A DNA stretch of 40,129 bases from Alphaproteobacteria bacterium (GTDB lineage: Bacteria > Pseudomonadota > Alphaproteobacteria > CAAGCB01 > CAG-977): the NCBI GenBank assembly GCA_017539865.1, contig JAFYCE010000093.1:1-40129 (forward strand). The letters are read 5' to 3'. The translations under genes and the position numbers were made by a program. Shown piece by piece: positions 2,640 through 15,100 of the stretch. The notes under the pieces were generated by a model. The model was given only the letters and a program-made list of their open reading frames with translations, was not told the DNA's origin and made no database searches. Numbering within the stretch: position 1 is the first letter of the stretch; each line of letters starts with the position of its first letter.

Positions 2640-4109
2640 ATGGCTGTACGTAATCCCGATAAGGACGACGTTCCGTATCTGTTTGCCGAACGCGTTTTGA
2701 CGGTTTCCTTGCCGACGGCCTTGATGTTGATCGTTTTGGTGCTGGCGGATGAAATTCAGCCGACGACGGCAATCGTCGGGTTTGCGATGGTCGTTTGCTT
2801 GACGATCGTTTTGGCCTTGCCGTTTTTGATGAATCTGAAAAATCTGACCCGATACGTTCATCAGTTGGCGCAGGAGGAAGATGTTTCCGAAGTTCCCGTT
2901 TTCGGTAAAAGGGATGAGGAATCCGTCCGTATTGTTGCGGCGATCAACCAGATGCGCAACGTTTGGGCAACGCGTACGGAACATTTGGAGGCGCAAACGC
3001 TTTCCGATGCGGCGGTGTTGGACAGTCTGCCCGATCCTTTAGTGATGTTGGACGGTGACGGCGTCGTAATCGGGGCAAATTTGGCGGCGCGTCAGTTGTT
3101 CGGTTTCAATGTGCGCGGTCAATCTTTGAAAGTATTGGTCGAATCACAATATCTTCCGTTGGCGACAGATCGGATCTTGCAAGGAAAATCCCGCAAGGAA
3201 AATCTGGAGATTTATTTAAAACAAAAGGTCTTTAACGCCAAGCTGGAACGTTTGCCCGCTGAAGCCAGAGCCGGCGCTGTTGCCGTTTTGACATTGTATG
3301 ATATGACGGACAGAAAGCAATTCGAGCAGATGCAGGCGGACTTTATCGCCAATGCCAGCCATGAATTGCGTACGCCGTTGTCGGTTTTATCCGGATTTAT
3401 TGAAACACTGCAAGGGACGGCCAAAGATGATGAAAAAGCCAGAGAGCGCTTTTTAAACATTATGCAAACGCAGGCTGGGCGAATGTCCGCTTTGATTGAA
3501 AGCCTGCTGTGTCTGTCGCGATTGCAAATGAGAGAAAAAAAAGAACTTTCCGAACAGGTGGATATCCCCGATGTTTTAACAACGGTCAAACAGATGTTGG
3601 ATACCAAAGCGGAAAAGATGGATATGAATATTGTTTTAAAACCGTGTACTCAATCCGGCAGGATTTCAGGCGATGTCGGTGAATTGAATCAAGTATTTCA
3701 AAACTTGATGGATAATGCTTTAAAATATGGTAAGACGGGCGGAAAAGTGACGGTGTCTTGCCATGTTTTGCCTAATGAAAATATGCTTGATAATAAGGCT
3801 CCTCAGATTTACGCCGTTTCCGTGCATAACACGGGCGATCCGATCGCACCGGAAAATCTGCCGCACCTGTTCGAACGGTTCTATCGCGTCGCCGAAACGA
3901 AAAACAAAGCGGTCGGAACGGGATTGGGGTTGTCGATCGTGCAGCAGATCGTCAAACACCATAACGGACAAATCAAGGTAGAAAGTTCGAAAGAAACCGG
4001 TACGGTCTTTACGGTGTATCTGCCAATGTATCCGCTTGATTTTTCTGCGGAAACCGACGATTTAAAAACAGAAGAACAATCAGCCCCGGCAAACTCAGAG
4101 CAGCCGTAA
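2640..4109 (+). CDS. phoR: PhoR-type membrane sensor histidine kinase
   Basis: This 489-residue sensor kinase has two hydrophobic segments (about 19-36 and 43-63), a linker, a PAS domain (about 120-225, ending TLYDMTDRKQFE), a HisKA domain and a C-terminal ATPase domain. The phospho-acceptor is His241 in FIANASHELRTPLSVLSGFI, a sequence typical of PhoR, which senses phosphate status with the Pst system and phosphorylates PhoB. The N box is QNLMDNALKYG (Asn359) and the G2 lid is GTGLGLSIVQQIVKHHNG (426-443). In the G1 box the usual DxG aspartate is Asn (NTGDPI, 397-402). As I recall, active kinases such as CusS also carry Asn there, so I do not call it inactive. No phoB, phoU or pst genes lie nearby, so the partner is unknown. 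The last 101 bp overlap the end of ampG on the other strand. Confidence 0.85.
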   Translation: MAVRNPDKDDVPYLFAERVLTVSLPTALMLIVLVLADEIQPTTAIVGFAMVVCLTIVLALPFLMNLKNLTRYVHQLAQEEDVSEVPVFGKRDEESVRIVAAINQMRNVWATRTEHLEAQTLSDAAVLDSLPDPLVMLDGDGVVIGANLAARQLFGFNVRGQSLKVLVESQYLPLATDRILQGKSRKENLEIYLKQKVFNAKLERLPAEARAGAVAVLTLYDMTDRKQFEQMQADFIANASHELRTPLSVLSGFIETLQGTAKDDEKARERFLNIMQTQAGRMSALIESLLCLSRLQMREKKELSEQVDIPDVLTTVKQMLDTKAEKMDMNIVLKPCTQSGRISGDVGELNQVFQNLMDNALKYGKTGGKVTVSCHVLPNENMLDNKAPQIYAVSVHNTGDPIAPENLPHLFERFYRVAETKNKAVGTGLGLSIVQQIVKHHNGQIKVESSKETGTVFTVYLPMYPLDFSAETDDLKTEEQSAPANSEQP

Positions 4110-10411: not shown

Positions 10412-10682
10412 TACTCCGTTGTATTACAAAAGCGCGGAGGGGAAAACGGACGGAGCGGATAAGACGCCGTCTTTGCGGCGAAAATGAAACAGGGCGGAAA
10501 ACACGGATAAAGCCGCTGCGATCATATTTAGGATTTGCGTTTTTTTTGATGCAAAGAAAAGTTGCATTTTTGTGATATTTTTATGACAACGGTGCCGTTT
10601 ATTGACCGTTTTTAGGGAAGAACGGATAAAAAAACGTTGTTTTTCAAGATGTTACACAACCACAACCCCCCCGCGAATTTAA
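10412..10682. other. A+T-rich intergenic region between divergent trxA and Cys-rich genes
   Basis: No reading frame with a ribosome site is visible. It holds a small inverted repeat ATGCAA/TTGCAT (10549-10567) followed by T's, a 5 bp repeat ACGGT/ACCGT (10589-10609), and a second weak promoter-like pair TTGACC (10602-10607) and GATAAA (10625-10630). I see no tRNA cloverleaf. A small RNA or regulatory role is possible but not shown. Confidence 0.4.
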
Positions 10683-10710
10683 TTGACTCGTGCACGTTTT
10701 CGTTTACAAT
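10683..10710 (+). promoter_or_regulatory. Strong sigma70-like promoter for the Cys-rich gene pair
   Basis: TTGACT (10683-10688), a 16 bp spacer and TACAAT (10705-10710) are followed about 20 bp later by a GGGGGAGGGG ribosome site and the ATG at 10744. Confidence 0.65.
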
Positions 10711-10743
10711 TTAACTGTATGCACTGTTTTGGGGGAGGGGACT

Positions 10744-11724
10744 ATGAACCGTTTTTTTATGATTATTCCCGTGCTTTTCGCCGTTGTTTTTTCTGCCGAC
10801 GCAAATGGATTTGAAATTGAAGTTACATATAGTGAACGTTCTCCGTGGCTCTACACTCCTAGAACACACACGGACATTGCTGCGGGCAGCGGCAGCGACA
10901 GTGATTGGGAGACATGGAAAAACAATAAAATGGCTTCGGGATTGTATAAGGAAATCCGGATTAATAAGAGTAATAAAAAAGCGGAAGTATCCATGGGGAA
11001 TGGGTATTATGCAACTACGTCCGGCTGTAGGGGCGGGAAAGATAGAGCATGTGGCTTTTATTCGAGTTGTCTAGAACGAAAAAGCGAAGAGCAATGTGAA
11101 AGTGAATATGCGGATGTGCTGCCATATTGCGGTTATAACGCCTGCTCAATTGTTCCGAGTACCGATCCGTATGATGACGGGGATTTTTTCAAGCCGGAAA
11201 AAGCCTGCGAATATACAATTACTGAAACCGGATTGACTTTTGCGCCCTTAGCGGGGCTATCTTCATCAAGACAGACGGAACTTTTATTGTGTTCATTGAG
11301 GGCAAAGGCAAATGAATGTTTATCTCCAGAGGAAAGAGAAGCCGTCGAGAATAGGTGGAATACATCTTATAAGCCCTATTACAACATGTCTTATCAACAG
11401 TATCAGGACAGTCTGTACAGGAAAGTGTATAAGCCTTGCGATACGGCACGCAATGAAGCTCAAATTACCTCGGAGGGCTCGTGTAACATATCGAATGCGT
11501 TTGTATACGAAGCCGGCTGTAAAGCCGAAGCGGCGAAAAAAGGTCAGTCCCCTGCGGACGTATGCTATCGCGGCAGTCACCCGACCTGTCCGTATGTCTA
11601 TTGTGACGTAGATGAGGGCTATGTTTGGAAAGACGGGAAATGTGTTGTCGGACAGAAAAAAATCAAAGGAAGCTGTCCGTCCCCGCTGAAAAAATCGAAA
11701 GATCGCTGCTGTTGCGTCGAATAG
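10744..11724 (+). CDS. Secreted cysteine-rich protein, unknown family (larger of a pair)
   Basis: This is a 326-residue protein. The ATG at 10744 is chosen because a purine-rich ribosome site precedes it and residues 1-20 form a Sec signal peptide with an Ala-Asp-Ala cleavage site. An upstream in-frame GTG would lie on top of the promoter. The mature protein has 20 cysteines (95, 103, 109, 118, 129, 134, 155, 183, 192, 232, 247, 259, 274, 282, 287, 300, 311 and 322-324), none in the first 94 residues. The C-terminal part, with YCDVDEGYVWKDGKCV and the end DRCCCVE, shares spacing with the next gene. Rare-looking codons (AGA, ATA, AGG) and a lower G+C than the neighbours hint at a different history. 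I recognise no enzyme motif. An extracytoplasmic, disulfide- or metal-rich structural or adhesive role is a guess. Confidence 0.75.
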   Translation: MNRFFMIIPVLFAVVFSADANGFEIEVTYSERSPWLYTPRTHTDIAAGSGSDSDWETWKNNKMASGLYKEIRINKSNKKAEVSMGNGYYATTSGCRGGKDRACGFYSSCLERKSEEQCESEYADVLPYCGYNACSIVPSTDPYDDGDFFKPEKACEYTITETGLTFAPLAGLSSSRQTELLLCSLRAKANECLSPEEREAVENRWNTSYKPYYNMSYQQYQDSLYRKVYKPCDTARNEAQITSEGSCNISNAFVYEAGCKAEAAKKGQSPADVCYRGSHPTCPYVYCDVDEGYVWKDGKCVVGQKKIKGSCPSPLKKSKDRCCCVE

Positions 11725-11739
11725 GAAAGGAGTATTGCC

Positions 11740-12090
11740 ATGAAAAAATTATTCTGCATTTTTGCTTTGTTTGTTTTTCTGCCCTGCTCCGTTCCAGCGG
11801 CGGACGGCGCGACGGATACGGAAAAAACGTTTCAAATCGCCAAAGCTTATAAGCTGTTCAGCTTTGAAAAGCAGGATTTCTATGGCAGAGACCGTCTGCT
11901 GAATAACAGGCCGGACAGAACGGACGACGAAGAAGCGGGCGGCGGCGGTACGTCCGACAACAAATCCGTCCGCACCTGTCCTGCGGGGAAATACAGAAAA
12001 AACGGCGGCGCCTGCGTATCGTTCTGCAGCGGTATCCAATGTACCACCGGCTCTCCCAGCGTCATTGCGGGCGGATGCTGCTGTCAATAA
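11740..12090 (+). CDS. Secreted cysteine-rich protein, unknown family (smaller of a pair)
   Basis: This is a 116-residue protein with an AGGAAAGGAG ribosome site 15 bp after the larger Cys-rich gene, so the two are very probably one transcript. Residues 1-20 form a signal peptide (cleavage near SVPA-A). Then comes a charged stretch with a flexible EEAGGGGTSDN linker (64-74), and a C-terminal module with Cys80, 92, 96, 101 and 113-115. It begins TCPAGKYRKNGGACVSFC and ends GGCCCQ. The spacing C-x11-C-x20-CCC closely matches C-x12-C-x21-CCC in the preceding protein, and both have a Gly/Lys/Tyr-rich stretch before the second Cys. It looks like a shortened paralogue or partner. The function is unknown. 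Confidence 0.75.
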   Translation: MKKLFCIFALFVFLPCSVPAADGATDTEKTFQIAKAYKLFSFEKQDFYGRDRLLNNRPDRTDDEEAGGGGTSDNKSVRTCPAGKYRKNGGACVSFCSGIQCTTGSPSVIAGGCCCQ

Positions 12091-12134
12091 AAAAGGATAA
12101 GAGAACGACCTTCAACGGCCGGTTTCCTTTATCC
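12089..12134 (-). terminator. Probable intrinsic terminator of the addBA operon
   Basis: Read on the minus strand, GGATAA (12134-12129) pairs with TTATCC (12100-12095), with further partial pairing inside, and six T's follow (12094-12089). On the plus strand no T tract follows, so it probably serves addA. Confidence 0.5.
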
Positions 12135-12159
12135 GCACGGACATGACCGCTGTTTTGTT

Positions 12160-15100
12160 TCAAACCGTTGTATTCGTTTCGTCGACGACGGATGTGATCT
12201 CGACCAGTTTCGGGGCTTCCGTCCACAGCAGGAAGCATCTGATTTTTTTGTCAGGGTAGATCTTTTCCATCACCGCTTTATAAGCCGCCATCTGCCGGAT
12301 ATAGGCAACAGGCGTTTTTCCGGTCGAATCGGGAATCGACCGTCCCGTTTTATAGTCGATCAGGCGGACTTCCTTATCCGAAACGGAAATGCGGTCGATC
12401 TGACCGTTGACGACACGGTTGTCGACAACGCCGGACACGGGGACTTCCGCCAGAGAGGGCAAGGCGAACAAGTCCTTTGTTTCGGGGGCGTTCATCAGGG
12501 AAAGGACGGAATCAACGATTTGTTTCCGTCCGGCTTCGTCCGTTTCCGGCATTTGCAGGGAAATGAGCCGTTCCGCCGCTTTCAGTCTGTCTTTTTCATC
12601 ATAGTCCGGCAGGATTTCCAACAAGGCGTGAACGGCCTTTCCGCGTTTCATCGCTTTGATGCGGCCTTGTGTCAAAGGCGAAAGGGCGGCCGGTTCTTCG
12701 ACGTCGGGGCGCGACGGGGCAAGCGGTCGGGGCGGCGTCGGTTCGGCGGGGGCGCTGCGGTCGAGCCAGTCGGGCAGAGGGGCCGTTTCGTGTGCGGTCG
12801 AAGTCTGTTCCTTTTGTGCGGGCGGCACTTCCTGAATGGAAGTCAGGCGCAAAACGGGTTCGTCGAACAGTTCCGATTTAATCTCCTGCGCTTTGGCCGC
12901 CAGACCGCCTTTGATCAGGTCGTACCAGTTGCCTTCGGGGGATTTCTTTTTATCCCATCCCGTGACGTAGAGCCTGTCCGCCGCACGGGTCAGGGCGACG
13001 TAAAGCAGGCGGTTGTATTCGCGTTTGTTTTTTTCTTTCAGGGCGTCGATTTCTTCGCGGATTAAATCGGTGCGCCATCCGGCTTTCGGCGACCAGAAGA
13101 ACAGCTCAAAGTCCGCGTCGTCCTTTTCTTTGATCCAGAACGTTTTCGGCGAAAAGAACGTCATTTGCCGCGTGTCGGGCAAAAATACGACGGGGGCTTG
13201 CAACCCTTTGGCCGCATGAACGGTCATGATACGCACAACGTCGCCGGACTGTTCGGGGTCGCGTTTGATTTCGATTTCGTTTTGCCGCAGACTGTTCAGG
13301 AAATTCTGCAGCGACGGCGGTTCGGAGCGGTCGTGCTGCAACGCCAAAGACAGGAACTCGTCCAAAGCGTCCAGAGCTTGCACGCCCAAACGGGAAACGA
13401 ACGCTTTCTGTTTGCCGAGCGGCCCCAGAATGTAGGAATACAGTTCATACGGGCGCATCTTGTCGACTTTGGAAAGTAAATCTTTGATGAACAGATACGC
13501 TTTGCCGAGCGGTGTTTCCGGCTTGTCTTCATATGTCTTCAGCCGGTCAAACAGCGTCGTTTCGCCGCGTCCGTACGCCAATGTGAACAGATCCTTTTCC
13601 GATACGCCGTCCAGCGGCATTTTCAAAGCGCTCGCTTTCGCCAGATCCTCTTCGGACAGGTCGGCGGCGGAAATGCCGCAGAGGGGCGAACGCAGAACGG
13701 TCGCCAGAGAAAGATCGTCCTGCGGCAGCAACAAAACATCCCCCAAAGCCATCAAATCCTTGACGGCAATGTGCGACGTGATTTTCAGCCGGTCGACACC
13801 CGCGACGGAAACGCCTCTGGTTTTCAATTCGCGGGACAGGTCGGTGATGAATTCGTTGCGCCGGCGCACCAAAATCAGAATGTCGCCCGCCCGTATCGGC
13901 CGGTCTTCGGATTCCAGTTTTTCCTTTGATGAAATCATATCGGCGATTCTTTGCGCGATTTTCGCCGCCAACCGTGCGGAGGACGTTTGCGAAAACACGC
14001 GTTCGACCGGCTTGGTGAACGCTTTTTCCGTATCGTTCTCAAGCGTTTTTTCCGTCGGCCACAACTCGACCAGTCCGGCCTGTTTCTTGCGCCACGAGAT
14101 ATGCGTGACGTTTTCATCGTCTTCCGCGACGCCGTTTCGGGCGGGCGGGGTTTGCAAAACGGAATTGACCGCGTCAATCACGGCGGGAACGGAGCGGAAG
14201 GAAATATACATCGGCACGTCGTTCCACCGCTTTTCCGCCGTTTCGACTTTGGCTTTGAAAAAGCGGCGCATCGTTTCAAATTCTTCCGGAACGGCGCCCT
14301 GAAAGCTGAAAATCGACTGCTTTTTATCGCCGACGGCAAACAATGTCCGGTTTGTGTGCCGCAATCCCGCGCCCGCGAAAAACTCCTCCGCCAGAGCTTT
14401 GATGATTTCCCACTGGTCGGGGCTGGTGTCCTGCGCTTCGTCAACCAGAATGTGGTCGATGCCGCCGTCCAGTTTGAACAATACCCATGCCGCCGCGCCC
14501 GATCCGTTCAGCAGGGCTTTCGTCGCGGCGATCAGGTCGTCGTAGTCCATGACGCCGCGGTTGTCTTTTAATGCGGTGTATTCGTTCAAAATCGCCGATC
14601 CGATCCGGAACAACGCCAAAGATACGCGCAGATTTTCAATGTTTTCCAAACGCTTGATCAGGATTAAAGCTTTATCCGCCTCCGCCTGCAAAGCGGGCAG
14701 GGCGACTTCCGATTCCTTGCACGCCAGTTTTGAACGGACGGTGTTGCTTTTCGTCAGGAAAACATCCAGATAGCCGTCCAGCAGGACAAGCTTTTCCTCT
14801 TCATCGGCCGCCAGAAACGGATAAATTTTGCCGGCGTTTTTCTTGTCTGTAGCCGTGGAGGACGCGCTTAAAACGTCCGCTGCCGATTTAAGACCGTTCC
14901 GCCGGTCGTCGCTTAAACGGCAGAAATCCCTTTTCAAAGATTCCGCCGTGCTTCCCGCCGGCAGATCCAGCCTTTTTTCATAGGCGGCGATCATTTCCCT
15001 TTCAGAGGAAAAACGCGCGTTGATGCGTTTTAAATCCGGCAGATGCGCCGTCATTTCCGTTAAAACATCCAGAAAAACGTCTTCTTTTGTGACAGAGGTA

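Follow-up and report, generated by a model that had tools for sequence, protein, structure and literature searches.

Paired cysteine-rich proteins that look exported: an unnamed family restricted to a lineage of Alphaproteobacteria

Introduction

Two adjacent genes of an alphaproteobacterial genome encode exported-looking, cysteine-rich proteins of different size, both of which have three consecutive cysteines close to the C terminus. The question raised by this locus is whether the two tails form one homologous module, as the original prediction had proposed, or whether other elements define the pair. The larger protein is termed A and the smaller B; the window is the whole stretch of DNA that was analysed, 40,129 nucleotides in length. 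Judged by sequence, the pair is real and belongs to a lineage-restricted family without a name, new to Pfam and NCBIfam, of cysteine-rich proteins that look exported and are encoded in pairs. The family is defined by a C-terminal tag of A and an N-terminal tag of B, rather than by the CCC.

Results

Gene pair in the window

Gene A (positions 10744 to 11724, plus strand) was identified from its open reading frame, its translation and its paralogues in the same genome, and encodes an exported-looking, cysteine-rich protein of 326 amino acids, the putative variable partner of the pair. Gene B (11740 to 12090, plus strand) follows after an intergenic gap of 15 bp and encodes an exported-looking protein of 116 amino acids, supported by translation and by seven own-genome paralogues. 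A carries 20 cysteines and B nine, seven of which lie beyond the signal peptide. The translations bear out the reading frames, their coordinates and the 20 cysteines originally given for A, and the CCC was correctly placed at residues 322–324 of A (11707 to 11715) and 113–115 of B (12076 to 12084). Signal-peptide-like N termini, which had also been claimed, are present in A (10744 to 10806, plus strand, end approximate) and in B (residues 1–21; 11740 to 11802, plus strand). They were called by visual reading and a simple script rule, and their ends are presumed ones. The spacing of the genes and a ribosome-site-like sequence suggest a common two-gene transcript; a scan of the window cassette for promoters and terminators gave no excess compared to shuffled sequences.

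Directly behind its signal peptide, B carries the N-terminal tag (residues 22–41, DGATDTEKTFQIAKAYKLFS; 11803 to 11862, plus strand), which was recognised by alignment A9 and a class-wide search. Its C-terminal cysteine module (residues 80–116; 11977 to 12087, plus strand), delimited by alignment A3 and an AlphaFold model, ends in GGCCCQ. The C-terminal tag of A (residues 311–326; 11674 to 11721, plus strand), described by profile A6, reads CPSPLKKSKDRCCCVE and ends in CCCVE. At E ≤ 10, Pfam and NCBIfam contain nothing that matches A or B, and a terminal CCC of this type is absent from both databases, in line with the original remark that no family with one was known to its author.

Cysteine patterns of the two tails

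The original prediction had described a spacing of C-x(11,12)-C-x(20,21)-CCC as common to both tails. This spacing skips Cys311 of A as well as Cys96 and Cys101 of B. With the intervening cysteines counted, the tail of A reads C287-x12-C300-x10-C311-x10-CCC and that of B C80-x11-C92-x3-C96-x4-C101-x11-CCC, so that the two do not follow one pattern; what they have in common is the loose pattern C-x2-G-x(n)-CCC. Applied to 33 A tails, a profile of the B module scored a mean of 5.4 bits, compared to 2.0 bits for cysteine-preserving shuffles. The fraction of shuffles scoring as well as the A tail had a median of 0.12 and reached 0.87 when the A tail of the window was tested. Support at the residue level is weak. 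We do not claim that the A and B tails are homologous, and the proposal of a single homologous CCC module is not supported.

The CCC varies and is not confined to the C terminus. Among the eight own-genome pairs it is kept in three A and four B proteins, the remaining ones having CC, CYC or only one Cys at the end. In paralogues it is replaced by CYC, NCC, RCC or SCC or is lost, and long B proteins have it at an internal position. As a check for chance occurrence, the own genome was searched for TGY-TGY-TGY-N(0-6)-TAR, which gave 22 sites, 20 of which were read. Six open reading frames of at least 60 amino acids among these end in CCC-x(0-2); five belong to the A–B cassette family, and the sixth (84 amino acids, without a signal peptide) looks spurious. 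Interchain disulfides between A and B were considered as well. In 22 A–B pairs the number of cysteines is odd in 14 B and in six A proteins and of the same parity in 12 pairs, which gives no signal for such bonds.

Pairing and tags across related genomes

The paired, exported-looking, cysteine-rich unit of the original prediction is supported and recurs in related genomes. A single-sequence search with A (P0001) found the tails of two more own-genome proteins (E-values of 6.8e-5 and 0.002). The corresponding search with B (P0002) yielded own-genome paralogues at C41 (2.6e-43), C71 (2.1e-25), C56 (1.9e-24), C117 (6.8e-13) and C57 (3.6e-4), and a profile search added B genes at C104 and C86. A weak B match at C27 overlaps a longer open reading frame of another kind and was rejected as chance. 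Each of the eight own-genome B genes is preceded, at a distance of 12–17 bp, by an A gene on the same strand; the A genes at C41 and C56, cut by contig edges, are counted within the eight pairs.

The A tag, CP-x9-CCC-x1-3 at the C terminus, is constant across the A proteins of the genus, which range from 97 to 543 amino acids. In 12 genomes of the bacterial family, profile A6 detected 39 A-tag open reading frames at E ≤ 1.6e-5, 18 of them being rows of the profile itself; they occur only in the genus, in all seven of its genomes. C-terminal CCC proteins thus recur in the profile search of related genomes that had been suggested as a check, and 35 of the 39 matches have an exact CCC, although the search itself is biased toward it. 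After two A-tag frames cut by contig ends were left out, a B gene with a K-L-G-type tag was found 5–34 bp downstream in 30 of 37 cases. Outside the 18 profile rows the count is 12/19, or 10/17 without two loci that had been fetched through B. Seven A-tag frames have no B; six of these belong to G002 and the seventh to G004.

A proteins often contain Ephrin_rec_like or TNFR-like repeats, as in L068 (11 stretches, E-value of 4.3e-44). PF07699 exceeded the cut-off in the A or B proteins of relatives at L068, L072, L071 and L091; the window's own A and B had no match to this family (Ephrin_rec_like) in the Pfam search. One own-genome A protein gave a weak VSP match (E-value of 0.027). Of 32 A cores, 24 fall into one similarity cluster, indicating that the passengers of A are not all unrelated. 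At L067 (approximately 3165–3981), A is seemingly split over two frames, one of 158 amino acids with a signal peptide and one of 88 amino acids with the CCC tag, followed by an intact B; a frameshift or phase variation is possible.

The constant part of B lies directly after the signal peptide and has the consensus SFxIAKAxKLGR, the window version being TFQIAKAYKLFS. Most B tags fit [S/T]F-x-[I/V]-A-K-A-x-K-L-G-R; some B proteins carry a shortened form, KVVKLGR, in which the aromatic residue is absent. In most B proteins with the long tag, the Phe is located 9–12 residues past the presumed cleavage site, and Phe31 of the window's B lies about 10 residues past it. Most B proteins have no cysteine at the lipobox position. 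Among 385 Alphaproteobacteria genomes searched, the full-length tag was observed only in the family of the source organism (f1). In the about 380 genomes of the class outside this family, matches did not extend beyond position 31 of 48, a part that is essentially the signal peptide. B is thus found in the genus and the family and is more widespread than the A tag, which is restricted to the genus. A first contig scan with profile A1 gave no match; in a second scan, the metagenome-assembled genomes carrying the B family were several BRZ bins and RGIG5000, which comes from the rumen of roe deer. No cassette proteins were found in the viral contigs, plasmids and phages searched, and the literature searches brought up no paper describing the family.

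B proteins range from 101 to more than 600 amino acids and occur with and without A, often alone. In small B proteins the cysteine module CxGVxCxxGxxPx(5-8)CCC stands at the C terminus; in long ones it lies internally and is sometimes repeated. Different passengers are attached to the B tag, some with weak beta-solenoid-like matches. At L064, L075, L079, L080, L093 and L102, the passengers look like beta-helices or solenoids instead of EGF-like cysteine repeats.

Insertion between addA and trxA

The cassettes are present in many scattered copies, and the window's pair occupies a site that is uninterrupted in relatives. In all ten family genomes with an addA match, the own genome left out, trxA comes shortly after addA without interruption; trxA was tagged by a script in nine of them, and the tenth has the same start sequence. 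At this place the window has an additional segment of 1.7 kb (10426 to 12164), which carries A and B on the strand opposite to addA, separates addA from trxA and breaks the 3′ end of addA. The segment is bordered by a 10-bp direct repeat, CCGTTGTATT, with its left copy at 10416 to 10425 and its right copy at 12165 to 12174; none of these three features is assigned a strand. The left copy keeps the relatives-like addA 3′ end, which stays on the trxA side, and the right copy lies within the present, differing addA 3′ end. The repeat looks like a target-site duplication, but this reading is tentative, since the sequence beside the right copy departs from that of relatives. Terminal inverted repeats are not claimed, as only a loose resemblance was seen by eye.

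G006 and G004 likewise lack a second cassette, that of C104, at the corresponding site, and their flanks are separated there by about 50–60 bp; no clear direct repeat was found at the C104 insertion. At C57 the cassette has a pilus operon on one side and a peptidase gene on the other, and G004 has no cassette there. When the C86 cassette region was used as a DNA query, its flanks matched different contigs of relatives, and this case is therefore uninformative on an uninterrupted site. Two-gene cassettes thus occur at places where relatives show no interruption, and they contain no transposase.

Structure models

Structure prediction for each protein, also suggested originally, was useful for B only. 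The AlphaFold model of B has a mean pLDDT of 59, with 74–82 per ten-residue block in the C-terminal module, and the model of A (mean pLDDT 42.7) was set aside. The B tag was modelled as disordered, which is weak evidence given the shallow alignment. Foldseek comparison of the B model with the PDB found nothing at E ≤ 0.001; three LDL-receptor-like matches had E-values of 5–8. A B profile had one match among PDB sequences, which was judged to be chance. Profile A6 matched residues 3–19 of the insect paralytic peptide 1irr (E-value of 0.0011), a likeness that suggests an EGF-type hairpin in the A tag.

Pilus and DsbA genes

At C57 of the own genome, a pilus operon (L169, 802–10962) encodes, by Pfam matches, TcpQ, Secretin, PAP_PilO, an unmatched protein, T2SSE and T2SSF. 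Secretin was found in 11 of the 12 family genomes and DsbA in all 12, and PilS pilins exceeded the cut-off in 12/12 family genomes vs 0/14 control genomes. The type IVb-pilus-like operon at C57 contains no pilin genes; PilS pilins are scattered elsewhere, with several copies in some genomes (e.g. L203 and L204). One of the eight own-genome pairs lies beside the pilus operon; the window pair is instead located at addA–trxA. No CofB/TcpB-like large minor pilin was recognised among the PF08805 matches inspected, of which the two with the longest frames are DUF805-like membrane proteins. Long proteins at L223 (2757–4106) and L224 (1682–2854) consist of a membrane part, which we take to be DUF805-like, followed by a PilS-like segment.

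Discussion

We tentatively favour a two-gene cassette in which B is an exported adaptor that docks on a pilus, A is its variable partner and the CCC hairpins are disulfide caps, a reading that is possible but taken as a whole still doubtful. A and B would be exported by the Sec pathway as a pair of disulfide-rich surface or secreted proteins. The flexible N-terminal tag of B might then dock on a machine shared across the bacterial family, the best candidate being the type IVb pilus apparatus; TcpF and CofJ dock in this manner, with their N termini binding the minor pilin at the pilus tip. A would be the variable partner, often composed of EGF/ephrin-receptor-like cysteine repeats, and its CCC tag the constant end that probably keeps A travelling or staying with B. 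In the periplasm, with DsbA present, the CCC hairpins may be oxidised to disulfide caps. B is favoured as the exported adaptor and A as the partner because of the pilus and DsbA genes, the analogy to TcpF and CofJ, the position of the Phe and the modelled disorder of the tag. Counted against this reading are the short tags without an aromatic residue, the cassettes that are not tied to pilus genes, the lack of a recognised CofB-like tip pilin, the seven A proteins without B, the cysteine parity, which does not favour A–B disulfides, and the single similarity cluster that holds 24 of 32 A cores.

Other readings have to be weighed against this one. By means of its genus-specific C-terminal CCC tag, A could ride with B, which would bear a family-specific N-terminal address tag, the gene pair spreading as small mobile cassettes that diversify the surface of gut and rumen Alphaproteobacteria, but we consider such carrier–passenger display improbable. 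Just as questionable is an envelope armour, in which A and B would stay in the periplasm or outer membrane as a disulfide-cross-linked network with the CCC ends as cross-link points. The adjacency of a large and a small cysteine-rich, exported-looking protein, the clustering of cysteines at the protein ends and the DsbA genes fit an armour, whereas multicopy, variable cassettes with presence/absence differences are unlike a structural coat, A and B have no Pfam match, and odd A proteins are not found in excess with odd B proteins. It seems unlikely that A alone binds host, protozoa or fibre as a repertoire of surface antigens or adhesins, with B as a co-transcribed passenger and the tags as structural ends of EGF-like repeats. 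The Ephrin_rec_like/TNFR-like repeats in relatives' A proteins and the weak VSP match agree with this; on the other hand, B has the wider spread, in the family compared to the genus, and is often alone, which argues that it is not a mere passenger.

A metal-binding or redox module, with the CCC thiol cluster binding a metal or Fe-S centre, is very improbable. Three adjacent cysteines with more close by would suit such a centre, but the triplet is replaced or lost in paralogues, the tail alignments show no conserved His/Asp ligand set, and A and B seem to be exported to an oxidising, DsbA-containing compartment. We give least credence to a pair that serves antagonism, such as toxin–immunity or bacteriocin: it would be compatible with the exported look of the two genes and with cassettes that are multicopy and appear mobile, yet both products look exported, neither resembles an immunity protein or matches Pfam or NCBIfam, and B is found without A as well as A without B.

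If the favoured adaptor–partner reading is right, a family of uncultured gut and rumen Alphaproteobacteria spends up to about 18 loci per genome (G003) on tagged, cysteine-rich exported proteins, many of them paired. The tags would then offer a sequence handle on the display or secretion of disulfide-rich proteins, perhaps by a type IVb pilus, and A–B would be a testable candidate for attachment to host, protozoa or fibre.

Comparison with known systems

PEP-CTERM, MYXO-CTERM and LPXTG are C-terminal sorting tags. Like these, the A tag is a short, conserved C-terminal element on variable proteins; unlike PEP-CTERM and LPXTG, it has no hydrophobic segment or basic tail. The insect paralytic peptide forms a C-x2-G-x(n)-ADG-x-C hairpin, and the match of the A tag to the 23-residue 1irr probably reflects a shared EGF-type hairpin pattern, not homology. 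Repeats resembling Ephrin_rec_like, TNFR-like or Giardia VSP-like sequences are present in the A and B proteins of relatives; those of the window do not match them. In Chlamydia, OmcA, a lipoprotein, and OmcB are neighbouring cysteine-rich proteins that are cross-linked by disulfides in the envelope. A–B resembles them as an adjacent small and large exported-looking cysteine-rich protein. A and B lack a Pfam match to them at E ≤ 10, form multicopy variable cassettes and in most B proteins have no cysteine at the lipobox position.

A parallel for our favoured reading is given by TcpF of Vibrio cholerae and CofJ of ETEC, type IVb-pilus-secreted proteins whose flexible mature N terminus docks on the tip minor pilin via Tyr5 (TcpF) or Phe10 (CofJ) (PMC9565799). 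Their tags are not KLGR-like, unlike the B tags, and the TcpF gene lies in the pilus operon, which is not the arrangement of the A–B cassettes. The cassettes differ further in their many scattered copies, cysteine-rich passengers, A partner and lack of an identified tip minor pilin. TcpF and CofJ have a Sec signal peptide and then a flexible stretch whose key aromatic residue comes within about 10 positions. B may resemble them in this, with its signal-peptide-like N terminus, its tag modelled as disordered and, in most long-tag proteins, the Phe 9–12 residues past the presumed cleavage site. A type IVb pilus machine is likewise encoded in the same genome as the cassettes (secretin in 11/12 and PilS in 12/12 family genomes).
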